Below the pieces are notes generated by a model. The model was not told the origin of the DNA. It worked only from the letters and a program-made list of their open reading frames with translations, and searched no databases. Positions 23,492 to 37,734 of a stretch of DNA of 38,259 bases are shown here, piece by piece (positions within the stretch are counted from its first letter, which is position 1; the number at the start of each line of letters is the position of its first letter). The DNA lies in NCBI GenBank assembly GCA_009377605.1, contig WHTT01000061.1:1-38259 (forward strand). The letters are read 5' to 3'. The DNA is from Luteitalea sp. (lineage in GTDB: Bacteria > Acidobacteriota > Vicinamibacteria > Vicinamibacterales > Vicinamibacteraceae). The translations under genes were made by a program, and so were the position numbers.

Positions 23492-24215
23492 CTATTCGCG
23501 GCGCTGTTTAAGGAACCAGGAATAGAGGTCCTGGCCTTCGTAGACACGCGTCCACACATTGTGCCCGAGATCTTCGTGGACGGTAAGACGGACGTCGGGA
23601 TGTCCGGCGGCTTCGAGCGCGACGGCCATCTCGAGTGAGCGCGACGGCTGCACGACCGTATCGCGGCCGCCATGAAAGATCCAAAGCGGCAGCTTTTGCG
23701 CCGCCAGGCGATCGACCATCTTCGGATCGCCGCTGCCGCAGATGGGCGCGATGGCGGCCCAGCGCTCGGGACGTCGCGTGCCCAGAAACCATGTGCCGTG
23801 GCGGGGCGGTCCCCTCCGGCGAACGTTCCGGCAGCGGCGGACGCTCCTCTGGCGGTGGCGTGAACATCGGCATTTGCGGGTTGATGATGATGAACGGAAG
23901 ATCGCGTCCCTGAATCCAGGCTTCCGCCAACGGGCCGTACCTTAGGGTGTACTCGAGCTCCTCGAGTCCGTCGCCACGCTCGCCTCCGCCGTGAAGAAAC
24001 AGAATCACCGGCCACTTCTTCCCGGTCTCCGACTGATACCCCACGGGCAGGTAGAGAAAATACTCCCGCGGCTCGCCGGCGGCCTTGCTGTCGTAGCGCT
24101 TGCGAACAAGCTGCGCGCCGGTGCGGACATCGACTTCGTCGGCCCTGGCGGGGAGATGGCCGAACAGCGCGACCGCGCCGGCGCTCATGGTCTGTAACAT
24201 GCGGCGTCTTTGCAT
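23492..24215 (-). pseudogene. Secreted alpha/beta hydrolase (PHB depolymerase/esterase-like), nucleophile region lost
   Basis: The ATG at 24215 opens MQRRRMLQTMSAGAVALFGHLPARA, a Tat-like signal peptide, then REYFLYLPVGYQSETGKKWPVILFLHGGGERGDGLEELEYTLRYGPLAE and LPFIIINPQMP, the oxyanion side of the fold. Where homologues have about 45 residues ending in the nucleophile elbow GLSMGGFGTW, this copy has only a proline-rich stretch, then HMVSGHATS, and the frame is lost. In other frames one reads RRPERWAAIAPICGSGDPKMVDRLAAQKLPLWIFHGGRDTVV and HPDVRLTVHEDLGHNVWTRVYEGQDLYSWFLKQRRE, with the acid and histidine. The serine motif is missing and at least one frameshift is present, so the gene cannot make an active enzyme. 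Confidence 0.85.
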
Positions 24216-24254
24216 GGATGGTGTTCCGTTCTCTCCTAAGCGTTCTATGCCTAG

Positions 24255-24283
24255 AGTAAACTATGTTACGAAATTGATGTCAA
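24255..24283 (-). promoter_or_regulatory. Promoter of the hydrolase pseudogene
   Basis: On the minus strand TTGACA (24278-24283), a 17-base spacer and TTTACT (24255-24260) form a good sigma-70-type promoter about 40 bases ahead of the start codon. It suggests the gene was inactivated recently enough for its promoter to persist. Confidence 0.55.
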
Positions 24284-24316
24284 CACTCGGGCACGCTTCG
24301 CATTAGCTCCGGGATT

Positions 24317-26953
24317 TCAGCTATGACGGAGTGCAGTAAGCGGATCGACGCGCGTGGCCCATCGCGCGGGTATGAAGCAGGCGGATGCGGCAACGACGAG
24401 AATGAGCGCGGCCGCGCCAGCGAAGGCCCAGTAGTCCAGAGGCTCAACACCAAAGAGCTGATTTGCGAGCACGCGGCTGAGGAACGCAGCCACCGCGAGA
24501 CCTATGGCCATACCGGTGGTGGCAAGTCGAAGACCATCGAGCAGTACACTGCCGAGAACCTGGCGCGGCTGGGCGCCCAACGCCATGCTGATGCCGATGT
24601 CGCGCGTGCGCCGCGTGACGTGGTACGCCATCACAGCGTAGATACCAATCGTCGATACGACGAGCGCCAGAAGCGCAAGCGCGCCGAGCAGCAAGGTCCT
24701 GAATCGCGGGACGGCAATCGAGTCGGCCACGAGCTGATTCATGGTCTTGACATCGTCAGCCGGGACGGTCCTGTCCGCCGACCAAATGGCCTGTCGTGTC
24801 TCGGGAACCAACATAGCCGGATCCACTGTCGTTCGAACCACGAGGAACGTGAGAAGGCCCTGGTTGGCGGATCCTGCGTCCTGATCGTACGGGACGTAGT
24901 ATTTCGGCTCGGCTGGCTGGTCGAGTCCCCAGTGCTTTTCATCATCGACGACGCCAACGACCGTCCGCGACATGCCGCCAGTGATGAGTCTCTGCCCCAC
25001 CGAGTCCACCGACGGCCACAACTGATGGGCAAGCCGCCGATTCACGATCGCAACAGGATCGCTGCCATGTCGGTCCCGGTCGCTGAAGTGCCGCCCCGTC
25101 AATAGACCGACCTTCATGACTTGGAAGTAATCGGCGCTCACGACGTTCGCCTCACCAAACTGCTCACCGTCGATGAAATCGCTCGAGATTCTCGCCTTCG
25201 TCGAGCGTCCACTCAGCGGCAACGTCATGACGAGCGCCGCTGACGACACGCCACGTTGAGATCGAACGTTGCGCAGCACCTCTCTGTGAAACCGACTGAT
25301 TTGCTCCCATGAGTTGTCTCGATGCCCAGGTGGCATCAGTCTCGCAGTCAACACCGAGTCCGGCGAAAAACCCATGTCGACACGATTGAGCGCCGACAGG
25401 CTTCGAATCGTCAACCCGGCACCAACCAGGAGCACGAGCGCCACCGCGACCTGGAAAACGACGAGCACGTTGGTCAGCCGCACCGAGCCGGGGCGCAGGG
25501 ATGGCGCGTTCTCGTCCGCCTGAATCGTCCTGGCAAGCTCCAGACGGTTCAGCGCGAGCGTCGGCACCACGGCAAGCAGCAGTGCGACGCCTACGGATAT
25601 CGCAAGAGCCGCGAACAGTACGGTCCCGTTGATGCCAATGTCCTCGATGCGCGGGATGTTGTGCGGAAAGAAGGGAATGATGGCGTGCAACGCCCAGTAG
25701 GTGCCGACCAGACCGGCGATGCTTCCGGAAACCGCCAGAACGAGGTTCTCTGACAGCGACTGCAGCAACACACGGGTACGGCTGGCGCCGAGCGACAGGC
25801 GCACCGCGGTCTCGCGCAACCGTATCGTGGAGCGCACGAGGAGGAGGTTTGCCACATTCGCGCAGGCGATCATCAAGACGAGGACAACGGCCCCGACCAG
25901 CAGCATCACGGCAGGGCGCAGGTGTCTCGTCACCCGATCGACGACCCGCGCGAGCAGCGGCCTCGCGCCTGGCGAGGTGCCGGCATCTGTCTGGTTCGGT
26001 TGGGACATCAAGCCGGTCAGCTCACTTCGGGCTTGCGCGACGGTGGCCCCGGCACCGAGCCGTCCCAACACCGTAACCCGGTGTCCCGGCGCGTCCGGTG
26101 CCGCCATCGGCTCCCACATCTCGCTCACCAGCCCAGGCACTTGAGAAGCGTCGGCTGGGTAGCGAAAGTCCGACGGCATCACGCCGACGATCTCGTACAA
26201 CTGGTCATCCAGAAGAACCGTCTTCCCGACAATGCGTGGATCCGCCCCGAAACGGCCAGTCCACAGACGATGGCTGATGACGACAACGCGGCGGCGAAGC
26301 CGAACATCGTCGTCCGCCAACGTTCGACCGAGTGCCGCACGGACGCCCAGCAGAGAGAAGAAGTTGTCGGCGACAGCGAGACCGAAGACATATGTGGGGA
26401 CGTTGTCTGCACGCAGATGGTGCCGCGTCCATTCCCAGGCCGTGAGCTCTTCGAAGGTCACACTCTGATCTTTCCAAACCGCCAGCTCCGCCAGCGAGGT
26501 ACCGTCCGTGTACCCTGGCGGCGCCTTGGGGCGACTCTGGGAGATATGAATGAGATTCTCGGGCGCGCGGAACGGCAGCGGTGCGAGCAGCAGCGCATGC
26601 AGGACGCTGAACACCGCCGTCGTGGCACCGATGCCGAGCGTCAACGACAGGAGGGCGGCGACGGTGAAACCGGGACTACGCCACATCATGCGCAACCCAG
26701 CCCGAAGATCACGCCCGAACATCTCGAGCGCGATCCCTCTCCAACCGTCTCTCACCTTCTCCTTCACCTGCTCGGAGCCTCCGAGCCGCAGCCTCACTGC
26801 TCGTTGTGCCTCCTCCCGCGTGAGCCCGCGCGCCATGCCGCGCTCCACCTGAATGTCGAAGTACGCCTGGACTTCATCATTCAGCTCCTCTTCCACCCGA
26901 AGGCGATCGAACCAACGCTCGAGGATGCGTGTGAGCCGCCAGAGCCACGACAT
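24317..26953 (-). CDS. ADOP-family FtsX/MacB permease (complete)
   Basis: 878 residues from ATG at 26953. Domains in order: cytoplasmic N-terminal helix region (MSWLWRLTRILERWFDRLRVEEELNDEVQAYFD), helix 1 (FTVAALLSLTLGIGATTAVFSVLHALLL), first MacB periplasmic domain, FtsX helices 2-4 (LLVGAVVLVLMIACANVANLLLVRS, then LVLAVSGSIAGLVGTYWALHAI and VLFAALAISVGVALLLAVVPTLA), linker helix (VLVVFQVAVALVLLVGAGLTIRSL), second periplasmic domain, and three C-terminal helices ending AARRWATRVDPLTALRHS-like (actual ARWATRVDPLTALRHS). All segments are present with no shift. It lies 34 bases after the shorter ADOP and, with padR, forms a three-gene operon. No ATPase gene is adjacent, as usual for the family. 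Transported substrate unknown. Confidence 0.9.
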   Translation of the reverse strand: MSWLWRLTRILERWFDRLRVEEELNDEVQAYFDIQVERGMARGLTREEAQRAVRLRLGGSEQVKEKVRDGWRGIALEMFGRDLRAGLRMMWRSPGFTVAALLSLTLGIGATTAVFSVLHALLLAPLPFRAPENLIHISQSRPKAPPGYTDGTSLAELAVWKDQSVTFEELTAWEWTRHHLRADNVPTYVFGLAVADNFFSLLGVRAALGRTLADDDVRLRRRVVVISHRLWTGRFGADPRIVGKTVLLDDQLYEIVGVMPSDFRYPADASQVPGLVSEMWEPMAAPDAPGHRVTVLGRLGAGATVAQARSELTGLMSQPNQTDAGTSPGARPLLARVVDRVTRHLRPAVMLLVGAVVLVLMIACANVANLLLVRSTIRLRETAVRLSLGASRTRVLLQSLSENLVLAVSGSIAGLVGTYWALHAIIPFFPHNIPRIEDIGINGTVLFAALAISVGVALLLAVVPTLALNRLELARTIQADENAPSLRPGSVRLTNVLVVFQVAVALVLLVGAGLTIRSLSALNRVDMGFSPDSVLTARLMPPGHRDNSWEQISRFHREVLRNVRSQRGVSSAALVMTLPLSGRSTKARISSDFIDGEQFGEANVVSADYFQVMKVGLLTGRHFSDRDRHGSDPVAIVNRRLAHQLWPSVDSVGQRLITGGMSRTVVGVVDDEKHWGLDQPAEPKYYVPYDQDAGSANQGLLTFLVVRTTVDPAMLVPETRQAIWSADRTVPADDVKTMNQLVADSIAVPRFRTLLLGALALLALVVSTIGIYAVMAYHVTRRTRDIGISMALGAQPRQVLGSVLLDGLRLATTGMAIGLAVAAFLSRVLANQLFGVEPLDYWAFAGAAALILVVAASACFIPARWATRVDPLTALRHS

Positions 26954-26987
26954 GGGTTATTTCTCCTCCGATGGACGAGAACGAAGA

Positions 26988-28883
26988 CTACTCCTGCCGC
27001 AGTGCCGACATCGGATCGATTCGCGACGCCCACCAGGCAGGGATGAAACAGGACGTCAAGGCGACGGCAAGGAACAATGTGCTCACTCCCAGCAGGGTCG
27101 GCCCATCGAGGGAGCTTGTCTCGAACAAAATCGACTGGATGACGCGCGACAGCGGAACGGTCGCGAGCAGGCCGATGGCAATTCCCACCAGAACAGGCTT
27201 TACACCCCCGGTGACCACCATGCGAATAAGATCGCGTCGTGTCGCACCGAGCGCCGCCCGGATCCCGAGCTCCTGTGTTCGTCGTGCTGTAACGAATGCT
27301 AGCAGACCGTAGATGCCCGCACAGGCCAGGAACATAGCAAGCGCTCCGAAGCCCGCCATGAGCAGCGCCATCAGCCGGCGCGGCATCGCCGCTTCCGTCT
27401 TGATCTGCTCCACGGTCATCGGGCGAAGCAGCGCTTGATGCTTGTTTACGTTCCAGACTGCATGTTGGACGGCTTTGATCAGCGCGCTGGCGTTGCCATG
27501 CCCCTTTGCCACGAGTCCGAGGCCGACGACCGGATTCTGCGCAAAGCTCGCATAGACGCCCACGTCGCTCGGGCGCTCCAAGCCGTTGGCTTTCTCGTCG
27601 GCGACGACGCCAATAATCTCCCACGACACTTCGGCTCCCACCCCGCGTCTCGAGGGAAGGATGCGCTCGACGAGAATGCGCTTCCCTACCGCGGGCTCGT
27701 CTGGTGAGTAGCGTTCGGCAAATGACTGGTTGACGACGACGACCGAGGGGGAGCCTGCCGTATCCTGCTCGTCGAGCAGACGCCCCTCGACCAAACGGAG
27801 CCCGAGCGCGGGAAAGTAGCCCGGCGTGACGATCTTGAATCCGGTTCCGCGGATTCGATCGAATTCATCTGGCAGACGAAACCGCACGCCGTTCCCCCAG
27901 CCGCGCAACGGCAGCGCCGTCGTCATGGCAGCCTCCTGCACGCCGGGCACCGCACGCACCGCGTCCAGCAGTCGATTGATGTACTGAGTCAATTCGCCCG
28001 GGTTCGGGTCGCGGTCCCTCGGCAGCGGCAGGGACGCTGACATCACCCCATCGGACACGAAGCCAACGTCGACGGTCATCAGCCGCTGGAGGCTGCGAAT
28101 CAACAGGCCGCCTGTGACGAGAAGGATGAACACCACCGCGACCTGTGCGGCGATGAAGGTCTGACGCGCACGAACGGGGCGGCGACCAGTCGAGCTCGTC
28201 CGCCCGCCTTCCGTGATCGCGTCGGCCGCATCGCCGCGCGCGGCCTGAATGGCTGGCGCTACACCACAGGCCAGGCTCGTGATGATCGTGATCGCAGCCA
28301 GAAACAGCAGCACGCGACCATCCATCGAGACGTTCACCTCGGACGGGAGAAAGAATGGTGGCAGCAGCTGTTGAATCCAGCGCAGCAGGCCATAGCCGAG
28401 CGCGAGGCCAATGGCCTGCATCTCCGCTCGTGCTTCTTGCACCGGGACACCGTGCTCCAGCCGCGCAAACGCAGTGAGGTAGTGATAGTTCCGGGGAGCG
28501 TCAGAGGGCAGCACGAGTGGAACCCACAGATCTGCCCATTGCCGATCGAATGGGCTCTCATCGGGCAGCACCCCGATGATCGTATAGGACTCTCCGTTGA
28601 GCAGGATGTCGCGGCCGATTACAGGGCGGCGAGCGCCAAGCAGGTTGTGCCATGAGCGATGACTGATGACCACCACCTTCTCGCTACCAGGTTGGTCTTC
28701 GTCTTCCGCGAAGGTTCGGCCGAGCATCGCGGTCATGCCGAACACGCGCGACAAACCTCGCGCCGTGCCGCGCTCGATCAGCGTCTCGAAGTACTCTCGC
28801 ACCTCGGCGTCCAGCTCCTCGTCGACGCGTTGCCGACGATATATGCGCTGATACAGATGCCTCAAGCGGCTCGTCCACACCAC
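26988..28883 (-). CDS. Short ADOP-family permease with two in-frame internal deletions
   Basis: 631 residues instead of about 870, yet one unbroken frame. GTG at 28883 (or the next codon) follows GAGGAGACC. The N-terminal segment ends at RGTARGLSR and joins directly to VFGMTAMLGRTFAEDE, skipping helix 1 and most of the first periplasmic domain. A second join, EMQAIG to LALGYGLLRWIQQLLPPFF, skips the VLLIACANVANLLL-type helix and the following one. The first half is thus reduced to part of the periplasmic domain plus two helices (VLLFLAAITIITSLACGVAPAI, TFIAAQVAVVFILLVTGGLLI). The second half is complete to WASRIDPMSALRQE. It starts three bases after padR. Either a pseudogene whose deletions happen to keep frame or a reduced but functional permease; the topology would be abnormal. 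Confidence 0.75.
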   Translation of the reverse strand: MVWTSRLRHLYQRIYRRQRVDEELDAEVREYFETLIERGTARGLSRVFGMTAMLGRTFAEDEDQPGSEKVVVISHRSWHNLLGARRPVIGRDILLNGESYTIIGVLPDESPFDRQWADLWVPLVLPSDAPRNYHYLTAFARLEHGVPVQEARAEMQAIGLALGYGLLRWIQQLLPPFFLPSEVNVSMDGRVLLFLAAITIITSLACGVAPAIQAARGDAADAITEGGRTSSTGRRPVRARQTFIAAQVAVVFILLVTGGLLIRSLQRLMTVDVGFVSDGVMSASLPLPRDRDPNPGELTQYINRLLDAVRAVPGVQEAAMTTALPLRGWGNGVRFRLPDEFDRIRGTGFKIVTPGYFPALGLRLVEGRLLDEQDTAGSPSVVVVNQSFAERYSPDEPAVGKRILVERILPSRRGVGAEVSWEIIGVVADEKANGLERPSDVGVYASFAQNPVVGLGLVAKGHGNASALIKAVQHAVWNVNKHQALLRPMTVEQIKTEAAMPRRLMALLMAGFGALAMFLACAGIYGLLAFVTARRTQELGIRAALGATRRDLIRMVVTGGVKPVLVGIAIGLLATVPLSRVIQSILFETSSLDGPTLLGVSTLFLAVALTSCFIPAWWASRIDPMSALRQE

Positions 28884-28886
28884 AGT

Positions 28887-29219
28887 CTAGGTCTCCTCGG
28901 CGAGCACCTGGTTTACGGCCGTCTGCACCTTGGCCCAGTGACGCTTCTCCTTGGCCAGTTGCGCCCGACCGGCCCGCGTCAAGGTGTAGAACTTGGCGCG
29001 GCGACCGTTCTCCAGCTCGCCCCACTGCCCGTCGATCCACCCCTTCTCTGCCAATCGGTGCAGCGCTGGAAACAGAGATCCCGGCCCAACCATGAACACG
29101 CCGCGCGTCACCTGCTCGATGCGATCGGCGATCCCGACGCCATGCAGCGGTTGCAGCTGGAGCGTACGGAGAATGAGGAGATCCAGCGTTCCTTGAAGAA
29201 GATCAGCGGCCTTCGTCAT
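28887..29219 (-). CDS. PadR-family transcriptional regulator
   Basis: 110 residues (MTKAADLLQGTLDLLILRTLQLQPLHGVGIADRIEQVTRGVFMVGPGSLFPALHRLAEKGWIDGQWGELENGRRAKFYTLTRAGRAQLAKEKRHWAKV). This is a short winged-helix PadR of the subgroup always seen in front of ADOP genes, with the LLQGTLDLLILRTL first helix, the recognition segment GSLFPALHRLAEKGWI and the wing NGRRAKFYTLT. First gene of the padR-adop-adop operon, with a three-base gap to the next gene. PadR proteins generally repress their own operon and are released by a small molecule or stress. A palindrome in its promoter spacer fits autorepression. Confidence 0.93.
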   Translation of the reverse strand: MTKAADLLQGTLDLLILRTLQLQPLHGVGIADRIEQVTRGVFMVGPGSLFPALHRLAEKGWIDGQWGELENGRRAKFYTLTRAGRAQLAKEKRHWAKVQTAVNQVLAEET

Positions 29220-29226
29220 GCGCTGG

Positions 29227-29256
29227 ACTATATCGACCGCCGATATCGGATGTCAA
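29227..29256 (-). promoter_or_regulatory. padR promoter with embedded operator; probably leaderless transcript
   Basis: On the minus strand: TTGACA (29251-29256), an 18-base spacer, and TATAGT (29227-29232), both close to consensus. The spacer holds the perfect palindrome CCGATATCGG (29240-29249) and an overlapping TATCG-ACCGC-CGATA. Only seven bases separate the -10 from the ATG at 29219, so transcription would begin at or next to the start codon and no Shine-Dalgarno is possible. A repressor on the palindrome would block RNA polymerase. Confidence 0.75.
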
Positions 29257-29285
29257 TAGACTTGAGCTGTGAGGAGGATCGGAAC

Positions 29286-29342
29286 TGGCACAAGTACCGT
29301 GCCAGACTCGCCCCGGGGCGAGCTCGGTACCATTCTTGCGCC
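29286..29342. repeat. Dispersed palindrome, family A, copy 3 (longest)
   Basis: The perfect core CTCGCCCCGGGGCGAG (29307-29322) is extended on both sides into 28-base arms, GGCACAAG... and ...CATTCTTGCGCC, that pair imperfectly, giving one 56-base palindromic element. It sits between the padR promoter and the end of the next ADOP gene. Confidence 0.7.
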
Positions 29343-29397
29343 TTTGAGTAGCTTGGAAGTTTCGTCGCGATTCGAACGTGACGCTGCGGGCCGAGTA

Positions 29398-29426
29398 ACG
29401 GCCGCCTCGGCGAGGCGGCCCTACCT
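29398..29426. repeat. Dispersed palindrome, family B, second copy / terminator
   Basis: Identical over 29 bases to 20522-20550. The hairpin GGCCGCCTC-GGC-GAGGCGGCC (29400-29420) follows the TAG stop codon of the complete ADOP gene (29425-29427) so closely that the repeat's GGTAGGG end overlaps the stop. Probably acts as a transcript end or stabiliser for that gene. Confidence 0.75.
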
Positions 29427-32040
29427 AGTCGGTTCGCAATGCGTCCACCGGATTGAGATGCGCCGCGCGGCGCGCCGGAAGGTACGAGGCGAGCAACCCC
29501 ACGGCACCCAGGAAGATGGCAACGCCAGCAAACACCCCCACATCGAGTGGCTCGACGTCGAACAGCAGGCTCGAAAGCGCCCGCGTGATGGCAACCGCAC
29601 CACACAGCCCCACGGTGATTCCTGCGAGTGCTATGCCGAGGCCCCGGCCGAGGAATTGGCGCAGGAGGTCGCGACGGCTGGCGCCGAGCGCGACGCGCAC
29701 ACCCATCTCCTGTGTGCGGCGGCTGACGGCGTACGCCATCACGCCGTAGATGCCGATCGCGCCAAGAAACAGCGCGATGCCCGCGAACACCATCAACACG
29801 CTCGCGGTGAATCGCGGCTGCGCCACGGATTCGGCGAGGAGCTCGTTCGCCGTGCGGATATCGCTGACCGGCGTGTTCTTGTCTAGCGAAGCGACCATGC
29901 CCCGAAGGTTTCTCGCGAGCAGCACAGGATCGCCCGTCATGCGAGCCACAATCTTCGTGGGAGCCCAACCATATTGCGCGGCAGGAAAATACAAGATCGC
30001 ACTTCCTTCGTCTGCCAGGCTGCTCCACTTGACGTCGTCCACGATCCCGACGATGGTGATCCAGGGTGAACCGGGGCCGGGGGTTCTGATACGTTGGCCA
30101 ACTGGATTTTCGCCTGGCCAGTACGTTTTCGCGAGGCTGCGACTGATCAGCGCGACCGGTTTGGCGCCCTCCCTGTCCTGCTCGGTAAACGCCCGTCCCG
30201 CGAGGAGCGGTACCCGTAAGACTCTCAAGTAGTCAGGGCTGATGGGCGCGAACGAGTGCGTCTGGCACCAAGCTCCTCCCGCAGTTTCTGGATCGGGTTG
30301 TCCCTCGATGGCGAAAACACCGCCGAGCCTTTCGCCTCCAAACGGGATCGCGGTGGCGAAAGCTACGGCATGGACATTGGGTAGCTGGCGGAGACGACTG
30401 ACGACCTGCTCGACGAAGCGTCGCTTCGCCTGCACATCGGGGTACTTGAGCTCAGGGGGAACGACCGTGGCGGAGACGAGCTGCTCCGCGTGGAATCCAG
30501 GATCGACGTTGGTGAGATTCCAGAGACTTTTCATGAGCAGGACCGCGGCAACGACCAGCACGAGGGCCAGCGCGTACTCCGCCCCGGCCAGAAGATCGGA
30601 GGCCCGGCGTTCCGGCCGTCCCGTCATCATTGACCGTCCGGCGCGAGACAGCGCGGCGCCAAGGCTAGAGACGGTCGCGTGCAATGCTGGCAGCAGACCA
30701 AACAAGAGTCCCGTCAGCACGGAGAGTCCGAGCGCATAGCTCAGCACTCGGACGTCCATCTGGATCTCCTCGATCCGAGGAATGTCCGGGGGAAGTAGCG
30801 ATACAACCGTCTGAAGACTGGCAAAGGCCAGCGCCGTCGCTAGCACGCCCGCGAGGAGTGAGAGCGTCAAGCTCTCAACCAGGAGCTGGCGGAACAGCCG
30901 CCCACGGCCGGCGCCGAGGGCGCCACGGATGGCGAGCTCTCTGTGCCGCGCCATTCCACGTGCGAGCAGGAGATTGGCGAGGTTGACACAGACGATCAGC
31001 ATCACGCTGCCGACAGCGGCCCAAAGCACGACTAACGTTCGTTCAATGTCGCCAACAAGTTGCTGCCGTAGGGGCATGACGTCTGCTCGCTGCTCCCAGC
31101 CCCGGTAAAACGACTCAGATGGAAACAGCTCGCGCAATGTGGGCGTGAATGACCGCACTTCCGTGCGAGCCTGCTCAAGACTTACGCCCGGATGTAAACG
31201 TCCAATGGTCCACGCATTGATCGCCCAAAGATCAATGCGGTCGGCTCGATCGATCGTGAGCGGTATCCAGAATCCTGTATCGCGAGATGGGAAGCGAAAT
31301 TCGGGGGGCATAACGCCGACGACGGATCGTGGCACGCCGTCGAGCACCAGCGATCGGCCGAGGATGCTCTCGTCGCCGCCAAAGCGTTGCTGCCACAAGC
31401 GGTGACTCAAGACGATAACCGCGTCGGCACCGGGGCGCATCTCTTCGTCACGAAACGTGCGACCAAGTACCGGCAGCGTGCCGAGCACGCTGAACAGCTC
31501 CGCGCTTGCCCTGGCTCCCATGAGGCGGACTGCCTCGTGGGATCCGGTCAGAGTGAGCTCCTGCCCGTCGCGGTAGGCACCGATACGCATCGTCTTGCCG
31601 CGCTCGCGAAATGCCAAGAACTGGCCTTGCGGTTGGTAACCGCCGAGGTGGGCATGAACGAGCCGGTCAGGATCCGGATACGGCAGCGGTCTCAGCAAGA
31701 CGCCGTTGACAACAGCAAAGATGGTGGTGTTCGAGGCAATACCAACGACGAGCGTCAACAGCGCCACGGTCGTGAAGCCCGGCTGCCGGCGAAGCTGCCG
31801 GAGCGCGTAGCGTATGTCCTGTGCGATGTGCTCCACCCACCGCGTCGGGCGCACATCACGGCACTCCTCCTTCATCCGCTCGACGCCGCCGAACGCGAGG
31901 TGCGCTTCGCGCCGCGCCTCGGCCTCGCTCATGCCAGCCCGCATGTAGTCCGCAACCTGGCGCTCGATGTGGTCACGGAGCTCCGCGTCGAGCTGCGCAT
32001 CGATCCGCCGGCGGCCGAGCAGTCGCTTCCACCAGATCAT
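29425..32040 (-). CDS. ADOP-family FtsX/MacB permease (complete)
   Basis: 871 residues from ATG at 32040 (MIWWKRLLGRRRIDAQLDAELRDHIERQVADYMRAGMSEAEARREAHLAFGGVERMKEECRDV). Complete architecture: helix 1 (FTTVALLTLVVGIASNTTIFAVVNGVLLRPL), first MacB domain with VIVLSHRLWQQRFGGDESILGRSLVLDGVPRSVVGVMPPEF, the VGSVMLIVCVNLANLLLARGMARHRELAIRGALGAGRGRLFRQLLVESL FtsX block, second periplasmic domain, and the C-terminal SVLMVFAGIALFLGAIGIYGVMAYAVSRRTQEMGVRVALGASRRDLL...AAHLNPVDALRTD. No deletion, so it serves as the in-window reference for the damaged copies. No padR directly precedes it. A -10-like TATAGA ends five bases before the ATG, again hinting at a leaderless start, though without a matching -35. 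Function unknown. Confidence 0.9.
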   Translation of the reverse strand: MIWWKRLLGRRRIDAQLDAELRDHIERQVADYMRAGMSEAEARREAHLAFGGVERMKEECRDVRPTRWVEHIAQDIRYALRQLRRQPGFTTVALLTLVVGIASNTTIFAVVNGVLLRPLPYPDPDRLVHAHLGGYQPQGQFLAFRERGKTMRIGAYRDGQELTLTGSHEAVRLMGARASAELFSVLGTLPVLGRTFRDEEMRPGADAVIVLSHRLWQQRFGGDESILGRSLVLDGVPRSVVGVMPPEFRFPSRDTGFWIPLTIDRADRIDLWAINAWTIGRLHPGVSLEQARTEVRSFTPTLRELFPSESFYRGWEQRADVMPLRQQLVGDIERTLVVLWAAVGSVMLIVCVNLANLLLARGMARHRELAIRGALGAGRGRLFRQLLVESLTLSLLAGVLATALAFASLQTVVSLLPPDIPRIEEIQMDVRVLSYALGLSVLTGLLFGLLPALHATVSSLGAALSRAGRSMMTGRPERRASDLLAGAEYALALVLVVAAVLLMKSLWNLTNVDPGFHAEQLVSATVVPPELKYPDVQAKRRFVEQVVSRLRQLPNVHAVAFATAIPFGGERLGGVFAIEGQPDPETAGGAWCQTHSFAPISPDYLRVLRVPLLAGRAFTEQDREGAKPVALISRSLAKTYWPGENPVGQRIRTPGPGSPWITIVGIVDDVKWSSLADEGSAILYFPAAQYGWAPTKIVARMTGDPVLLARNLRGMVASLDKNTPVSDIRTANELLAESVAQPRFTASVLMVFAGIALFLGAIGIYGVMAYAVSRRTQEMGVRVALGASRRDLLRQFLGRGLGIALAGITVGLCGAVAITRALSSLLFDVEPLDVGVFAGVAIFLGAVGLLASYLPARRAAHLNPVDALRTD

Positions 32041-32149
32041 CTCGCTCTATACACCTTTGACTTCGACATATACCAGATGAACGGTAGAAGGTCAAGGCGT
32101 TCAAAGAGTCGCTGCGAGACGACGGGGCGCCCTCTGCCCCTCCTCGCGA

Positions 32150-32178
32150 CAGTCCTCGTCGGTACTAGTCTTGCGCCA
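32150..32178. repeat. Dispersed palindrome, family A, remnant copy
   Basis: GTCCTCGTCGGTACTAGTCTTGCGCC closely follows the right arm of the copy at 29286-29342, but the left arm is not recognisable. Otherwise 32041-32218 holds no gene I can support. Confidence 0.35.
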
Positions 32179-32218
32179 TGGATTGGTCGAACAGAGACAA
32201 CGCGGTCACTCGCTAGAA

Positions 32219-32298
32219 ACGAATCGGCAGTTAGAATCGGACGAATCGGCAGCGACATCAGGGACGAATCGGCGATGAAGCGCTGGACGAATCGGCAG
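32219..32298 (+). repeat. Four direct repeats of ACGAATCGGC at 22-23 base spacing
   Basis: ACGAATCGGC begins at 32219, 32241, 32264 and 32287, three of the four followed by AG, and a partial copy (AGAATCGG) begins at 32232. The regular spacing is about two helical turns, which places the repeats on one face of the DNA. The array ends 15 bases ahead of the methyltransferase start codon. It resembles an iteron or multi-site operator, but decayed tandem duplication is also possible. Confidence 0.65.
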
Positions 32299-32312
32299 CA
32301 AGCGGTCAGACA

Positions 32313-32906
32313 ATGCAACACAACAAGGCGGTCGACCTCATCGGGAAGGGCGTGCAGCGAGGGGACACCGCGTGGGCCGACCTCGGGTCTGGCGACGGCA
32401 CGTTCACACGCGCGCTGCGCGAGCTGCTCGGACCCGACGCGGACATTTATGCTGTAGATGTGGACGGATCCACACTAAAAAGTCAGAAGAAGGTCCTGGG
32501 AAGTCACGCCGATCTATCGAAGACGCATCTCATCGAGGCAGACTTCAGACGGCCACTCGAGCTGCCGCCTCTCGACGGGATGCTCCTGGCAAACGCGTTA
32601 CATTTCGTCCAGGATCAGATCACAGTGCTGAGCCAGCTCCGCGGGCATCTCAAACCGTCGGGACGTCTTCTCGTCGTCGAGTACGACATCACGCGCGGCT
32701 CCATGTGGGTTCCGCATCCGCTTCCGTTCCGAACCCTGGTGCGGCTCGCGCCTGCCGCCGGCTTTCAACCACCCGTGCTCCTGGCAACGACGCCCAGTCG
32801 ATTCAGGAGCCAGATCTACTCAGCATTGGCCGTCACGGGTGAACGGCGTCATCGCGAGATGAGCCGGCCCGAAGCCAATTTCGCCGATCGCGGAGGTAGC
32901 CGATGA
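32313..32906 (+). CDS. Class I SAM-dependent methyltransferase
   Basis: 197 residues (MQHNKAVDLIGKGVQRGDTAWADLGSGDGTFTRALRELLGPDADIYAVDVDGSTLKSQ). The SAM-binding glycine-rich motif I is at residues 23-30 (DLGSGDGT), the acidic motif after strand 2 is AVDVD, motif IV is LPPLDGMLLANALHFVQDQ, and the later strand is GRLLVVEYD. Small-molecule methyltransferase type, substrate unknown, cytoplasmic. The ribosome-binding sequence is weak (AAGCGG). The stop overlaps the start of the truncated DUF1772 gene by four bases (ATGA), so the two were a coupled pair. The repeat array directly upstream is the only visible control element. Confidence 0.85.
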   Translation: MQHNKAVDLIGKGVQRGDTAWADLGSGDGTFTRALRELLGPDADIYAVDVDGSTLKSQKKVLGSHADLSKTHLIEADFRRPLELPPLDGMLLANALHFVQDQITVLSQLRGHLKPSGRLLVVEYDITRGSMWVPHPLPFRTLVRLAPAAGFQPPVLLATTPSRFRSQIYSALAVTGERRHREMSRPEANFADRGGSR

Positions 32907-33085
32907 TCGCCATAGTCCTGGCCACCCTATGTACAGGCGTCTTCGCGGGCGCCGCCATTTACATCACGCTGGTGGAGCACCCGGCCCGCTTGGCTTCTGG
33001 CACGGCGGCGGCGATCGCTGAGTTCCGTCCAAGCTATCGCCGCGCGGCGCCAATGCAAGCGTCACTGCGCTTACCTGTTTCGTAA
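32903..33085 (+). pseudogene. Truncated DUF1772 (anthrone oxygenase-like) membrane protein
   Basis: 60 codons: MIAIVLATLCTGVFAGAAIYITLVEHPARLASGTAAAIAEFRPSYRRAAPMQASL matches the first third of DUF1772 proteins, which are normally about 150 residues with four membrane helices. The match stops at about 33065; five further residues come from unrelated sequence, and the TAA stop at 33083-33085 runs into the family C hairpin. Only the first helix remains. Start overlaps the methyltransferase stop. The deletion has brought the hairpin against the truncated end. Confidence 0.8.
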
Positions 33086-33535
33086 AACGGGGGCTGTCCC
33101 CGTTTCTGTTTTCACCGCCCCGGGACGTTCGAGGTAAGTGTCGCCCGGTGGGGCGAAGCCGAACGGCTCGTAGAGGCCGTGCGCGTCCTGCGTGTGAAGC
33201 GCCCAGCGAAAGTGGGCACCGGAACCACGGTCGATCATGGTCCTGACGAGCTCCTTGCCAACGCCGCGTCCCCGGGCCCGCTCCAGCACGAAGACATCAG
33301 CAAGGTAGGCATACGCCTCGCCGTCGGAGATCGCGCGTGCGAAGGCCACCATCTGTCCGCTGGCCTTCTCGTACGCCCCCACGACACGCCAGGCGCTCGC
33401 GATCTGTCGCTCGACAATGTCGCGTGTGCGCCACTTACCCCAATACGCGTCGGTCGAGAGGTACGCCCAGACCGCATCGCGATCCACGCGTTGTGGATCG
33501 TCATCCAGTTCGACCTCACCGTGCTCGATCACCAT
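33071..33535 (-). CDS. GNAT-family N-acetyltransferase
   Basis: 154 residues from ATG at 33535. GNAT fold: AYWGKWRTRDIVERQIASAWRVVGAYEKASGQMVAFARAISDGEAYAYLADVFVLERARGRGVGKELVRTMIDRGSGAHFRWALHTQDAHGLYEPFGFAPPGDTYLERPG. The acetyl-CoA pyrophosphate-binding motif is RARGRGVGKELV. The likely original end is near YLERPG; the last residues VKTETGTAPVLRNR are encoded by the family C hairpin repeat at 33085-33105 and its flank. Third gene after the M16 pair with a three-base gap, so it belongs to that operon. Substrate unknown. Confidence 0.85.
   Translation of the reverse strand: MVIEHGEVELDDDPQRVDRDAVWAYLSTDAYWGKWRTRDIVERQIASAWRVVGAYEKASGQMVAFARAISDGEAYAYLADVFVLERARGRGVGKELVRTMIDRGSGAHFRWALHTQDAHGLYEPFGFAPPGDTYLERPGAVKTETGTAPVLRNR
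33085..33105. terminator. Family C hairpin, bidirectional terminator-like
   Basis: Perfect 8-bp stem AAACGGGG-GCTGT-CCCCGTTT with A/T-rich flanks, between the end of the DUF1772 remnant and the 3' end of the GNAT gene. Shape (GC stem, A and T flanks) fits a rho-independent terminator in both directions. A near-identical element is at 12598-12618. Confidence 0.7.
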
Positions 33536-33538
33536 GGC

Positions 33539-34927
33539 CTACTGCTCGACCACCTGACCAAACGGCGTCAGCTGTTCGCGGATCTGTGCGCGGTCGCCGA
33601 CGACGACGATGGTCATGGTCGGGTCCTGCAGGTAGTCCTTGGCGATGCGTTGGACATCTGTCGGCGTGACCGCGTAGACGTTCTTGACGTAGGTCGTCAA
33701 ATACGCGTCTGGCAGTCCGTGGAGGCCCAGAAACGCGAGCTGGCCGATCACGCCTTCACGGCTCGAGTTCCGCAGGACGAAGATCCCGGCCACGTAGTTC
33801 TGGATGCCTTCGAGCTCGTTTGCGGACGGCGCTTCCTCCTGCAGGCGCTGAATCTCGTTGAAGATCTCACGCATGGCCGCCCCAGTGTCCGCGGTGGTCA
33901 CGTCCGCGCTCTCCACCCAGTGCGCAGCGCGATAGCGCACGCCAACGGCGCTGGAAGGCGAGTACGTGTAGCCCTTGTCCTCGCGAATGTTGGACGTAAT
34001 GCGCGATCCAAACGAGCCGCCCAGCAGCGCGTTGGTGACCTGGAGTGCCATGTAATCCTCGTGCGATGGATCGACAACGGGCAAGCCGATTCGCAACGTC
34101 GACTGTGGAGCACCCGGGCGGTTGATGAGGTGCACCACCCGCTTGGTCACAGGCTTGGGAGGCTTGATCAAAGGCTCTTGTCCGCGCCCCCAATCGCCGA
34201 AGCTCTCGCGAATCGCCTCTTCGACGTCCCCTTCATCGAACATCCCAGCGACATAGACGTGCGTGCGCTGGGCACCAAAGTTCGTCTGGTAGAAGGTCTT
34301 GACTCGCTCGATGTCGTAGCTGCCGATCATCTCCTCGGTTGGGAACACGCGCCCATAGGGATGATTCGGATAGAGCAGCTCCATGAAACGCTCTTCCGCC
34401 AGCGGCTGGGCCTGGCTCTTGGCGATCGACAGATTCCGCACCATGTCCTTTTGCAGGCGGCCCAGCTCGGACGCCGGGAAGGCTGAGTGTCGGACGACGT
34501 CCGCGAGCAGGCGAACGAGGCCGCCGGCGTTCTCACTCAAGGCGTCGCTCGCAACCGTGGTCTCGTCCAATCCGGTGCTGATCGTCAGCTCGCCGCCCAT
34601 CGCCGCGACTTCGGACGCGAGCGCCTCCGCCCCGCGCGTGGCGGTGCCTTCCTTCATCAGGTCTGCGGTGAGATCGGCAAGCCAGGTTTCATCCGCACCC
34701 TCATTGAGGTTGCCCGAGCGCACGATGACCGAGACGGTGACCTTGGGCAGCGTTCCATAAGGCACGAGCGTCGCGCCCAGGCCGTTGTCCAACTGAAAGC
34801 TCTTCTTGGCGGGAAGCTTGAACGCCTTCGGCTCGCCACCCGGTGGGGGCTCTTGCTTTTGGGTAGAAACAGCGGAGACCGCCAACACACTTGCCAGAGC
34901 CGTTGCGACGCTCAGTCGAACCATCAT
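33539..34927 (-). CDS. M16-family peptidase, non-catalytic subunit
   Basis: 462 residues with signal peptide (MMVRLSVATALASVLAVSAVSTQ). It has the M16 two-domain fold (FQLDNGLGATLVPYGTLPKVTVSVIVRSGNLNEGADETWLADLTADLMKEGT), but where active members have HxxEH, residues 83-90 read LADLTADL, with no zinc ligands. The C-terminal domain keeps the arginine/tyrosine pair used for substrate binding (SRITSNIREDKGYTYS, Arg315 and Tyr322). This matches the regulatory partner of heterodimeric bacterial M16B peptidases. The start overlaps the stop of the catalytic subunit gene by four bases (ATGA), which implies coupled synthesis and a periplasmic complex. Confidence 0.9.
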   Translation of the reverse strand: MMVRLSVATALASVLAVSAVSTQKQEPPPGGEPKAFKLPAKKSFQLDNGLGATLVPYGTLPKVTVSVIVRSGNLNEGADETWLADLTADLMKEGTATRGAEALASEVAAMGGELTISTGLDETTVASDALSENAGGLVRLLADVVRHSAFPASELGRLQKDMVRNLSIAKSQAQPLAEERFMELLYPNHPYGRVFPTEEMIGSYDIERVKTFYQTNFGAQRTHVYVAGMFDEGDVEEAIRESFGDWGRGQEPLIKPPKPVTKRVVHLINRPGAPQSTLRIGLPVVDPSHEDYMALQVTNALLGGSFGSRITSNIREDKGYTYSPSSAVGVRYRAAHWVESADVTTADTGAAMREIFNEIQRLQEEAPSANELEGIQNYVAGIFVLRNSSREGVIGQLAFLGLHGLPDAYLTTYVKNVYAVTPTDVQRIAKDYLQDPTMTIVVVGDRAQIREQLTPFGQVVEQ

Positions 34928-36330
34928 TGCGCTCCTCCTTGCCCCTTCTCCGCTCCGGGTTCGATGGTGTAGATGGTGCGATCGGCCGCGCGCAAATAGC
35001 GTTTCGCCACCGTCTGGACCAGCTCCGGCGTCACCTCCCGCAAACGCTGATCGAGCGTATTGATTTGGGCCGGATCGTCATCGAACAGCGCAAAGCAGGC
35101 GAGCAGGTCCGCTCGGCCGAAGCCGAAGTCGCTGCCGACGGCGTCGTAGAAGCTCGAGCGCCACTTGGCCAGGGCCCGATCCAGCGCCGCCTGGTCGACC
35201 GGCGTGCTCTGGAGCGTTCCGATCGCTCCGTCGACCTCTCGCATGATCTGATCGCCCTTCACGCTCGAGTCGTGATAGAGCGACGCCATCCATAGAGTTG
35301 GGCCGTTGTAATTGAACATGTGCCCGAGCGGCCAGTTGATACCGCCTTCCACCTGGTCGGTGAACCCGTTACGTTGCACGAGTGCCTGGTGCAGCAGGCT
35401 GTCGTCTCCCTGGAGGAGAATCTGGTCGAGCACACCCAGAGCGAAGTATTCCGGGGAGCCTCGGTCCGGCATGCGATACGCGAAGGCGAGCGCGGGACGA
35501 TTCGCCTGCGGCGCCACGCGTGAGCCGTGCCGTTCCTCTTTTTGCGGCGGCTCGGAAATGTCTGGCAGCGCGGCCGTCTCGGCCCTCGGAATATCTGCGA
35601 AGTACTCGCGGATCCAGGTCAACGCCTGCTTCGACTCGAAGTCGCCCACGACGACCAGGGCAGCATTATTTGGCGCGTAATACGACTTGAAGAAGCGCTC
35701 GACATCCGACAAGCTCGCCGCATCGAGGTCTGCCATCTCGCCGTAGAAATTGTGTGAGTTGTACCAATTCGTGAACGCGACTTGCGGCACATCGAGCCAC
35801 GGAAAGCCGCCGTAGGGCTGATTGAGCACGTTGACACGCACCTCGTTCTTGACCACGTCGCGCTGATTCTTCAAGTTCTCCTCGGTGATGGCGAGGCCGC
35901 GCAGGCGGTCCGCCTCGGCCCAGAGCATGGTCTCGAGCTTGTGCGAAGGGACGATCTCGAAGTAGTTCGTGAAGTCGTATCGCGTGGAGCCGTTGAGAAT
36001 GCCCCCGTTCTGCTGCACGAGCTGAATGAACTCCATCTTCCCGAGGTTCGCCGATCCCTGGAACATCATGTGCTCGAACAGATGCGCAAAGCCGGTGCGT
36101 TCCTTCGGCTCGATGCGAAATCCAATGTTGTAATAGACGGCAACCGTCACGATGGGCGAGGTCGTGTCTGGCGAAAGCACCACCTTCAGCCCGTTATCGA
36201 GCGTGTGATACTCGACCGGCACGCTGAAGGCGTCCGTGGTCTCTTGGCTTTCCTCCTGCGTTGCGCAGCCGAGCGCCAGTGCGCTCAGCGCCGCGATGAG
36301 CGCAAGACGAGGCAGCTCGCTTCTTGTCAT
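34924..36330 (-). CDS. M16-family zinc peptidase, catalytic subunit (probable lipoprotein)
   Basis: 468 residues from ATG at 36330 (AGGGGG upstream). The N-terminus LALIAALSALALGCATQEES looks like a lipoprotein signal with Cys22, although alanine stands at the usual -3 leucine position. The inverted zinc motif HLFEH is at His83-Glu86-His87, with the third ligand Glu163 in VVKNEVR. The C-terminal domain (RPALAFAYRMPDRGSPEYFALGVLDQILLQGDDSLLHQALV) is typical. It probably degrades peptides in the periplasm with its partner encoded directly downstream. First of three genes with the partner and GNAT; it starts 34 bases after the HTH gene, which may share the transcript. Confidence 0.92.
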   Translation of the reverse strand: MTRSELPRLALIAALSALALGCATQEESQETTDAFSVPVEYHTLDNGLKVVLSPDTTSPIVTVAVYYNIGFRIEPKERTGFAHLFEHMMFQGSANLGKMEFIQLVQQNGGILNGSTRYDFTNYFEIVPSHKLETMLWAEADRLRGLAITEENLKNQRDVVKNEVRVNVLNQPYGGFPWLDVPQVAFTNWYNSHNFYGEMADLDAASLSDVERFFKSYYAPNNAALVVVGDFESKQALTWIREYFADIPRAETAALPDISEPPQKEERHGSRVAPQANRPALAFAYRMPDRGSPEYFALGVLDQILLQGDDSLLHQALVQRNGFTDQVEGGINWPLGHMFNYNGPTLWMASLYHDSSVKGDQIMREVDGAIGTLQSTPVDQAALDRALAKWRSSFYDAVGSDFGFGRADLLACFALFDDDPAQINTLDQRLREVTPELVQTVAKRYLRAADRTIYTIEPGAEKGQGGAQ

Positions 36331-36364
36331 GTCACCCCCTATGGAACCGCCGGAACCAGTCCGT

Positions 36365-36715
36365 TCAGACAGCGATCTTGGTCTCGATCGCGTCGTAATC
36401 GACACGCACGCCACGGTCTGTCGCGTCGAGAAGCCCCGCGCCTGTTAGAGCTTGGACATCCGCGTGCACGTTTCTGTAGTCGCGTCCCAGGGCCTGCGCC
36501 AGCGCTCGGACACTGGTGACCTTGTGCCGGCGTACATACCGCAGTAGCTCCATCCGCTTCCCTGTCAGGACGCGTGAGAGCGCCTCCCAACTTTCAAATG
36601 CCAAATGGCGCTCACGGAAGGACTCACCACGCTCCGCTCGGTGCCAGGCCTCGAGGAACCGGCGGCTCGCATCGTCTTCGATAGCGCCGCCTACCGTAAT
36701 CCTTGCTTTGCTCAT
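36365..36715 (-). CDS. Antitoxin-like HTH DNA-binding protein (HVO_A0114 type)
   Basis: 116 residues from ATG at 36715. SRRFLEAWHRAERGESFRERHLAFESWEALSRVLTGKRMELLRYVRRHKVTSVRALAQALGRDYRNVHADVQALTGAGLLDATDRGVRVDYDAIETKIAV matches the small winged-helix regulators annotated as HVO_A0114-family or MarR-like antitoxins. The HTH is SVRALAQALGRDYRNVHADVQALTGAGLL. They usually lie next to a small toxin gene such as DUF6516, and none is recognisable here. The reading frame stays open for some 165 bases upstream of the ATG without an obvious start, so a longer protein or a remnant of the partner cannot be excluded. It diverges from vapBC. Confidence 0.75.
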   Translation of the reverse strand: MSKARITVGGAIEDDASRRFLEAWHRAERGESFRERHLAFESWEALSRVLTGKRMELLRYVRRHKVTSVRALAQALGRDYRNVHADVQALTGAGLLDATDRGVRVDYDAIETKIAV

Positions 36716-36849
36716 GTGCCACCTCGAATCCCCATTAACAAGCTGGCGCAGCGGACCATATGGTGTCAACTGCCATATATATTGGCCTGGCGGCGAGATG
36801 CGGCCGCTGATGGTGGCAGATTCGCCGTTGACGCAGACGCGCGGTCCGG

Positions 36850-36894
36850 TTGATATTGTGACCTCACGCTGATATCTTCAGTAAAGTTGATATC
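36850..36894 (+). promoter_or_regulatory. vapBC promoter with three TGATAT repeats
   Basis: -35 TTGATA (36850-36855), 17-base spacer and -10 TATCTT (36873-36878). TGATAT occurs at 36851, 36870 and 36888, that is 19 and 18 bases apart and overlapping both promoter boxes; CTTCAG...CTGAAG adds an inverted repeat. Such sites fit autorepression by the VapBC complex. AAGGAGG (36897-36903) is the vapB ribosome-binding site. Confidence 0.6.
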
Positions 36895-36908
36895 TGAAGG
36901 AGGCCATT

Positions 36909-37124
36909 ATGTCTCGTACAGTTGTCGATATCGACGAGCAAGCTTTGATTGAGGCCATGAAAGAGTACGGCACCTCAACAAAGGTCGAGGCGGTAAACCG
37001 GGCACTCCGTGAGGTGGCCAACCGCCGTGCCAAGCGGCTCCGCAAGGCGTTCAAGGTCTGGGATCGAATGGCCGCCGATATGGTGGAGGTCGATTGGGAC
37101 GAGGCATGGCGGCGGCGCGGGTGA
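36909..37124 (+). CDS. vapB: Type II antitoxin, VapB family
   Basis: 71 residues: MSRTVVDIDEQALIEAMKEYGTSTKVEAVNRALREVANRRAKRLRKAFKVWDRMAADMVEVDWDEAWRRRG. The N-terminal ribbon-helix-helix (TVVDIDEQALIEAMKEYGTSTKVEAVNRALREVANRR) binds DNA, and the C-terminal tail with VEVDWDEAWRRRG is the toxin-binding part of DUF2191-type VapB proteins. AAGGAGG lies five bases upstream. It overlaps the toxin gene and is preceded by operator-like repeats. Confidence 0.92.
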   Translation: MSRTVVDIDEQALIEAMKEYGTSTKVEAVNRALREVANRRAKRLRKAFKVWDRMAADMVEVDWDEAWRRRG

Positions 37125-37618
37125 CCGGTGCGGAGTCGTCCGCTCAGGACGTGGTCGAAGAGCCAGAGAGCCCACTTTATCTCATCGATAAATCGGCCTG
37201 GGAACAACGCCAGCATAGCGTGACCGCAGGCCAGCGCATCAACCATCTGGTCATTGAAGGCCGGGCGGCAACCTGCTGGCTAGCGGCGCTGGAACATCTC
37301 TATTCGGCGCGCAACAGCGCAGACCTGTCCGACCGGCGCGACTCCCTCGACCTGCTCGTCTGGTTACCTGTCACGGCGGCGGTGGAGTCGACAGCGTTCG
37401 ATGTCATGGCGAGACTCGCCCGAAAAGGACAGCACCGCCTTCCCCTTCCGGATATCACCATCGCGGCGACAGCTCTCGTGCACGGGGCAATCGTCATGCA
37501 TTACGACAGTGATTTCGAACGCATCGCGGAGGCGACAGGTCAGCGACACGAATGGATCGTGCCGCGCGGTACCGGCCACGGCCGCAGGACCGAGGACACT
37601 GGCCGGCCGCCAGGATGA
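37106..37618 (+). CDS. vapC: Type II toxin, PIN-domain ribonuclease VapC
   Basis: 170 residues if started at ATG 37106; GTG at 37121, which overlaps the vapB stop as GTGA, is an equally good start and gives 165. The PIN domain acidic residues are present: Asp28 (YLIDKSAW), Glu63 (ALEHLYSAR), Asp116 (LPDITIAATA) and Asp134/Asp136 (HYDSDFERI). VapC toxins cut tRNA or rRNA with Mg2+ when the antitoxin is degraded. The C-terminal tail (PRGTGHGRRTEDTGRPPG) is longer and less conserved than usual. The pair appears intact. Confidence 0.92.
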   Translation: MAAARVTGAESSAQDVVEEPESPLYLIDKSAWEQRQHSVTAGQRINHLVIEGRAATCWLAALEHLYSARNSADLSDRRDSLDLLVWLPVTAAVESTAFDVMARLARKGQHRLPLPDITIAATALVHGAIVMHYDSDFERIAEATGQRHEWIVPRGTGHGRRTEDTGRPPG

Positions 37619-37734
37619 ACTCGTGGTACATGCGACCACCTTAGTGGTAGATTCCCTCCTACAACCCTCCGACAAGAGTAGCAACGGGAACACGCAGGGC
37701 ACCTACGGGGTCAAATCTCATTACGACGTGACAC

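Follow-up and report, generated by a model that had tools for sequence, protein, structure and literature searches.

A PadR regulator of Luteitalea very probably represses its own gene and its exporter gene at a promoter interwoven with CGATAT boxes

Introduction

In some members of Acidobacteriota a single genome contains tens of PadR genes, a large share of which lie in padR-ADOP operons. Autoregulation of PadR proteins is already known. The locus described here raises the question of which sequence such a PadR would recognize in its own promoter, and whether the same sequence stands before its exporter gene. The DNA analysed, a 38,259-nt stretch of Luteitalea sp. (contig WHTT01000061.1; hereafter referred to as the window), carries a padR gene between permease genes that we take to be of ADOP type; the label is our assumption, while the MacB_PCD and FtsX domains were identified by a domain search. 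A first-pass annotation, made from the letters alone, had proposed that this padR is transcribed from a leaderless promoter with a perfect palindrome, CCGATATCGG, in its spacer, ideally placed for autorepression. The genes under consideration are as follows.

24317..26953, minus strand: second ADOP-type permease, 878 aa; the next gene, in the same direction
26988..28883, minus strand: MacB/FtsX permease of ADOP type, in which MacB_PCD and FtsX domains were found; 631 aa, directly behind padR
28887..29219, minus strand: padR, 110 aa, of PadR-s2 size; Pfam match; Val28/Phe50 by alignment
29425-32040: third ADOP gene, upstream of padR

The padR operon

The padR reading frame matched the Pfam PadR family (PF03551) with 72.3 bits over residues 16-90 of 110 (cut-off, 27), the winged-helix domain covering most of a ~110-aa protein as in PadR-s2 members, and 41 distinct solved chains matched this protein at E <= 0.01 (best, 4.9e-12). 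The 631-aa permease is likely to be co-transcribed with padR, and among the 9 closest relatives, 8 have an ADOP gene or a fragment of one behind padR. Compared with its 881-aa ortholog in Luteitalea sp. Dino_bin50 (genome G006, contig C97), this permease is without two in-frame stretches of ~151 and 98 codons, and a single FtsX stretch is seen in it, against two in the neighbouring ADOPs; it may represent a shortened, perhaps decaying gene with the frame kept, or else an assembly error.

PadR promoter collections

A PadR scan of the species-genome collection gave 75 loci, of which 32 are covered by the promoter listing. The window PadR and its nine closest relatives (66-93% identity) made up a clade set of ten members; the relatives belong to one Luteitalea, three Bryobacterales/Bryobacteraceae bins (five loci), two other Acidobacteriota bins and one bin labelled Acidimicrobiia. 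PadR matches numbered 59 in the window genome (G000) and 92 in G006, which is of the same genus as the window and carries a padR ortholog 93% identical; all 59 and 89 of the 92 were used (in-frame stop, n=1; under the cut-off, n=2). These 148 PadRs included 141 with a usable start and 64 nt upstream, and 101 of the 141 carried the G[TSA]L motif. After removal of L198, which duplicates L069, and of L268 and L272, which lack a start, the scan contributed 71 of its other 72 loci to the final set of 172 PadR promoters, 64 nt each, from G000, G006 and the scan. A divergent subset was formed by 92 promoters whose proteins are <68% identical, and 29 sigma-factor promoters, from 30 loci fetched of 38 matches, were used as the control.

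The padR promoter and its leaderless geometry

29220..29226, minus strand: CCAGCGC, the 7 nt between -10 and ATG, without a Shine-Dalgarno-like word; leaderless geometry
29227..29232, minus strand: -10 hexamer TATAGT, after an 18-nt spacer; first three bases common to the last CGATAT box
29230..29246, minus strand: dyad 2, ATATCG-GCGGT-CGATAT (ATATCG-N5-CGATAT), 17 bp, odd centre; overlaps the -10
29230..29248, minus strand: CGATATCG-GCGGT-CGATAT, conserved core of the putative operator, from box conservation in ten clade members
29240-29249: CCGATATCGG, where the inner half-sites of dyads 1 and 2 overlap; its outer C and G are not kept in the clade
29243..29259, minus strand: dyad 1, CTATTG-ACATC-CGATAT, 17 bp, imperfect; contains the -35
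29251..29256, minus strand: -35 hexamer TTGACA; its TTG doubles as the inner end of the left half-site of dyad 1

The near-consensus TTGACA-N18-TATAGT announced by the first-pass annotation was indeed found, ending 7 nt upstream of the padR ATG (29219, minus strand). With 11 of 12 hexamer bases matched, it is the strongest sigma-70-like site in 24000-38259, at the top of six promoter-like sites, the other five of which score 9 (shuffles average 2.5 sites). The 7 nt between the -10 hexamer and the start codon, without a Shine-Dalgarno-like word, agree with the definition of leaderless genes (6-8 nt), and the same geometry is shared by the clade, the start lying 6-7 nt past the -10 in nine of ten members and 9 nt past it in L201 (the start codons of L205 and L206 are GTG). 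The padR transcript is therefore likely, as far as promoter geometry indicates, to be leaderless with its 5′ end at or near the ATG. A survey of leaderless genes describes, in the part available, a TANNNT signal ~10 bp before the start and predicts such genes in all three Acidobacteria genomes covered (mean, 13.3%; PMC3160421); the padR promoter is alike in geometry, and on that portion of the source nothing differs in kind. As a rule for the PadR family the leaderless geometry was rejected, being found in only 6 of the 92 divergent promoters, two of these six coming from the window clade; a -35/-10 pair could be recognised in 20 of the 92, among which the six make up the same number; it is a trait of the window's PadR clade and a few others, and not of PadR promoters generally.

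Further upstream, several other elements were observed. Adjacent inverted repeats, CTCGCCCC/GGGGCGAG and TGGCAC/GTGCCA, occupy 29286-29322, the 150 nt at 29275-29424 have a folding z of -2.6, and a hairpin at 29395-29425 stands between the upstream ADOP gene and the padR promoter. This hairpin contains GGCGGCCCTACC (29414-29425, plus strand), which has 141 copies in the genome versus 5 for the reversed control, and is a REP-like intergenic element.

Conserved CGATAT boxes

The perfect palindrome CCGATATCGG was confirmed at 29240-29249 as the single exact copy in the window, but it is by itself not remarkable versus chance: it occupies 8 places in the 6.79-Mb genome, versus 4 for the reversed control pattern, and for the 64 nt upstream of padR, 21 of 100 dinucleotide shuffles gave a dyad as good as the best one there. 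It is the partial conservation of this region in the relatives that exceeds chance. The exact 10-mer, whose conservation in related promoters had been set as a test of the proposal, was found in the window only (1/10), and its core CGATATCG was retained in nine of ten, L201 having CGATATTG instead. The proposed autorepression site in the spacer was thus upheld in its location, where a probable repressor site lies, and lost in its unit.

The conserved unit, CGATATCG-N5-CGATAT, is larger than the palindrome, and the most suitable reading of it is two overlapping odd-centred 6-N5-6 dyads running from the -35 into the -10. The pattern TTGAC-N3-CGATAT-N-G-N5-CGATAT-NN-T is present in all ten clade members, with the start codon 6-7 nt on in nine and 9 nt on in one, and TTGAC-N3-CGATATNG-N5-CGATAT stands in register with TATNNT at the 18-nt spacer in 10/10; the -35 reads TTGAC in all ten and TTGACA in nine. 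Mean pairwise identity over the 45 pairs is 97% for the -35, 97% for the first box and 100% for the second, against 26% for the two bases before the first box, 33% for N5, 27-28% for the upstream blocks from -80 to -4 and 56% for the four bases just before TTG. Among the loci listed, the next match after the nine relatives (L207, 59% identity) is without CGATAT boxes. Dyads 1 and 2 have CGATATCG in common, and the palindrome noted at first is this overlap; since both spacers are N5, the whole array is roughly symmetric about CGAT/ATCG. As in an autoregulated PadR-exporter module, a dyad overlaps the padR promoter.

The boxes overlap or adjoin the promoter hexamers, as would be the case if only the -35 and -10 were conserved and the remainder reflected slow divergence without any operator. 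This explanation is scarcely credible: CGATATCG at 29241-29248 lies outside both hexamers and is yet 97% conserved, while the bases flanking it are at 26-33%.

The same boxes before an unlinked ADOP gene

In G006, padR (C88) and the ortholog of the window ADOP (C97) are located on different contigs. The C97 product, 881 aa in length, is 73% identical to the window ADOP over the last 474 residues of the latter and 74% over its first 46. Before this gene lies TTGACA-CT-CGATATAG-TTAGT-CGATATTG-TCTCT-CGATAT (C97:75772-75803), corresponding to the pattern TTGACA-N2-CGATAT-N7-CGATAT-N7-CGATAT, and little but a padR-like 3′ tail separates the array from the ADOP frame. The DNA similarity begins in what would be the last padR codons, and therefore the padR body is missing there. 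A site shared between padR and an unlinked exporter gene, another mark of such a module, was accordingly found, in one genome only. The occurrence of a CGATAT array before both padR and an unlinked ADOP is the best evidence that this PadR may control both genes, and it would extend the first-pass proposal past autorepression. Two observations in G006 count against such a reading: the gene behind padR (L198/C88) encodes an alpha/beta hydrolase, the padR-promoter cassette being kept, and another PadR, L131 (51% identical to the window PadR), lies ~2.3 kb from the split ADOP, although the dyad in the L131 promoter is a different one.

G000 and G006 contain one copy each of the full dyad ATATCG-N5-CGATAT, in either case in this padR promoter, and one copy in G001, of the same family, lies away from padR. 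When one mismatch was allowed, G006 gave three loci, namely padR, ADOP and the PadR paralog L128 (59% identity), and G000 gave five, with a suitable context seen only at the padR promoter. Inspection of the open reading frames within 120 nt of the four G000 places outside C61 (C15, C16, C75 and C184) gave no padR or ADOP frame, and a regulon beyond padR was rejected for this genome on that ground. Phylum-wide, occurrences of the bare CGATATCG-N5-CGATAT, found in 21 of 396 genomes, do not exceed chance, and among the sites read only that of the window precedes padR. The phylum-wide outcome, the four G000 places and the copy in G001 were weighed against the operator reading.

Spacing preference of dyads in PadR promoters

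Perfect 6-N5-6 dyads were detected in 20 of the 92 divergent PadR promoters, versus 1.3 expected from shuffles, and in 1 of the 29 sigma-factor control promoters. For perfect 6-bp inverted arms separated by 1, 3, 5, 7, 9 and 11 nt, the counts were 7, 20, 20, 10, 16 and 10 of 92 (shuffles, 1.2-1.6), while gaps of 0, 2, 4 and 6 nt gave 0, 1, 4 and 1 (1.7 expected at gap 0). Longer gaps are less enriched (6-7 promoters at each even gap from 8 to 20 and 5-10 at the odd gaps from 13 to 21; ~1 expected), which is what overlapping or multiple half-sites would give. At the 41 TTGAC-anchored places, the triplet before TTG was fully complementary to the closing triplet of the 6-N5-6 frame in 10, against 1.2 expected with partners permuted, and none of 10,000 permutations reached 10; nine of the 41 show no complementarity in these triplets at all, and in the window two of the three bases are complementary. 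The gap counts and this anchor test together indicate that the usual scaffold of such PadR operators is odd-centred and often includes the -35. Shuffle tests of single promoters are weak, because 5 of the 29 sigma-factor controls reached p 0.05, as did 11/40 (G000) and 18/61 (G006) of the ADOP-motif PadR promoters, and the main weight is on the spacing histogram and the clade conservation.

These counts bear on the alternative of one even-centred operator, either the palindrome CCGATATCGG of the first-pass annotation or some longer even palindrome with that centre, occupied by one PadR dimer. The palindrome is perfect and well positioned, its core recurs in nearly the whole clade, and even gaps of 8-20 nt are moderately enriched across the family; moreover, the top-scoring dyad of the G006 padR ortholog (L069), TATTGACAGCCGAT/ATCGTCTGTCGATA, is even-centred, a 28-bp imperfect palindrome with the same centre that none of 100 shuffles reached. 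This dyad would suit a symmetric reading of the array equally well and was counted against the odd-centred one. On the other side, the most conserved block is the second CGATAT, which lies outside the palindrome, zero-spaced dyads are absent from the 92 promoters where short odd gaps are strongly enriched, and the split ADOP promoter has CGATATAG and CGATATTG instead of the palindrome with the 13-bp CGATAT steps retained. The exact 10-mer was rejected as the operator unit on its single occurrence in the clade and the lack of zero-gap enrichment, and the even-centred proposal as a whole is unlikely.

Some PadR promoters showed palindromes of other kinds. In Gemmatimonadota and Opitutaceae, the PadRs L212, L213, L218, L221, L222 and L226 have very long promoter palindromes that include the -35, for example CGACAACA..TGTTGTCG, which appear to be another operator class. 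The promoter of L024 in G000 carries an inverted repeat with perfect arms of 14 bp and a 3-nt loop, ATTCTTACCTTAAG-aac-CTTAAGGTAAGAAT, whose end is two bases from the padR start, and the centre of this palindrome is partly kept in the ortholog L137.

Half-sites of PadR paralogs

The sequences suggest that PadR paralogs tend to carry their own half-sites, as exemplified by CTTTCG-N5-CGAAAG, CTGTGG-N5-CCACAG and ACATAG-N5-CTATGT. We checked 19 further PadR loci, ten with GSLF (53-64% identical to the window PadR) and nine without. Half-site variants at N5 were found for nine of the ten GSLF PadRs, with L191 as the exception; they include ATATAG-N5-CTATAT in L189 and CTATTG-N5-CTATAG in L192 and L197. 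For six other GSLF PadRs in G000 and G006, the half-site was recognized by eye in L009, L018 and L128 and was absent from L012, L115 and L136. Of the 7 PadRs in which HG is followed by W or V, 6 have the inner CG; a correspondence between the HGx residue and the inner bases of the half-site was nevertheless rejected, as L189, L195 and L082 have V yet ATATAG or GTATAG half-sites.

Could the boxes belong to a different transcription factor, with PadR acting elsewhere or through another operator? The point in favour is that the window PadR lacks both signature tyrosines of the wHTH (Y28 and Y48 of LftR), Val28 and Phe50 being found there by alignment; the first position is Val in all ten clade members, and the second is Phe in nine and Tyr in L206. 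Since the aligned tyrosines of LftR matter for DNA binding, according to the accessible part of that report (PMC6457526), this was counted against the operator reading. Among 172 aligned PadRs, Tyr occupies the first signature position in 95 and the second in 151, and therefore the missing tyrosines bear on how typical this protein is more than on its PadR-s2 membership. Against another factor, the boxes accompany this PadR clade across Acidobacteriota bins and change as PadR diverges. For PadR ortholog pairs between G000 and G006 (>=80% identity), furthermore, the ortholog promoter was the best match among 86 candidates in 29 of 33 cases, while the same test on the DNA at -160 to -96 gave 3 of 32. 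We consider the involvement of a different factor to be very improbable.

A tentative generalization, to which we would give slightly less than even odds in view of the rejected HGx code, is that dozens of PadR-operator pairs, largely insulated from each other, exist in the window genome on a common 17-bp 6-N5-6 scaffold, in which the half-site is rewritten as paralogs diverge while the spacing stays constant. In such a scaffold, the left half-site and spacer can absorb the -35, giving NNNTTG-ACANN-CNANNN.

Proposed mode of regulation

We propose, with a probability of roughly 0.8, that a sigma-70-type promoter and PadR's own operator are fused at 29227-29259 (minus strand), where PadR would repress its operon; in other words, both padR and its exporter gene are very probably shut off by PadR at the CGATAT promoter. 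From the promoter, the box conservation, the family spacing preference and the same boxes before the ADOP ortholog, all shown by comparison, we infer the start site, PadR binding, dimer number, repression and ligand relief as follows. RNA polymerase would use TTGACA-N18-TATAGT and probably start on the padR ATG or no more than two bases from it, producing a leaderless mRNA for padR and the downstream ADOP permease gene(s). PadR dimers would bind 17-bp sites, each composed of two 6-bp half-sites five bases apart, and the two dimer sites would overlap by one box, CTATTG-ACATC-CGATAT covering the -35 and ATATCG-GCGGT-CGATAT covering the distal spacer and the beginning of the -10. Bound PadR would hide both hexamers and repress its own operon, until a ligand, presumably a substrate of the exporter, releases it.

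Discussion

Our searches of the open-licence PMC literature gave no description of this half-site, of N5 spacing, of an operator fused with the -35 or of the many paralog-specific versions, nor of operators of ADOP-linked PadRs. The spacing preference and the named clade operator turn the presumed PadR control of ADOP into short testable probes. Many paralogs with their own conserved sites would represent a natural series for specificity change in winged-helix repressors, and they would also offer a source of insulated repressors.

The known PadR systems are compared here from those parts of the cited reports that were available. The operators of PadR (Pediococcus and Lactobacillus), LadR and LmrR are described as even-centred ATGT/ACAT with N8-10 (PMC3506622, PMC4517056), and LmrR binds its own promoter with several dimers for autoregulation (PMC4534193). 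The window system resembles LmrR and PadR in the small dimeric PadR, the inverted repeat in its own promoter, the exporter as target and autoregulation, predicted in the present case. Unlike ATGT-N8-ACAT, the window site is best read as the odd-centred ATATCG-N5-CGATAT; the canonical PadR-s2 operator was rejected as the window site, no match being found in the padR promoter even with one mismatch. LftR of Listeria is similar in its PadR-s2 size, in the partly palindromic site in its own promoter and in the wHTH mode, and differs in its dependence on Y28 and Y48, to which Val28 and Phe50 of the window PadR are aligned (PMC6457526).

The operator in the promoter of cdPadR1 from Clostridioides difficile, TACT-N11-12-AGTA (PMC5050560), is closer in arrangement: cdPadR1 is likewise a PadR-s2 protein with two inverted repeats in its own promoter, one of them over the predicted -35/-10, and the N11 form is odd-centred. 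The half-site is different, and cdPadR1 requires an AT-rich spacer, tolerates flexible spacing and has two separated sites, with 200 potential matches to the motif in the C. difficile genome (PMC5050560). The window dyads, in contrast, share one box, and their spacing is fixed in ten clade members.
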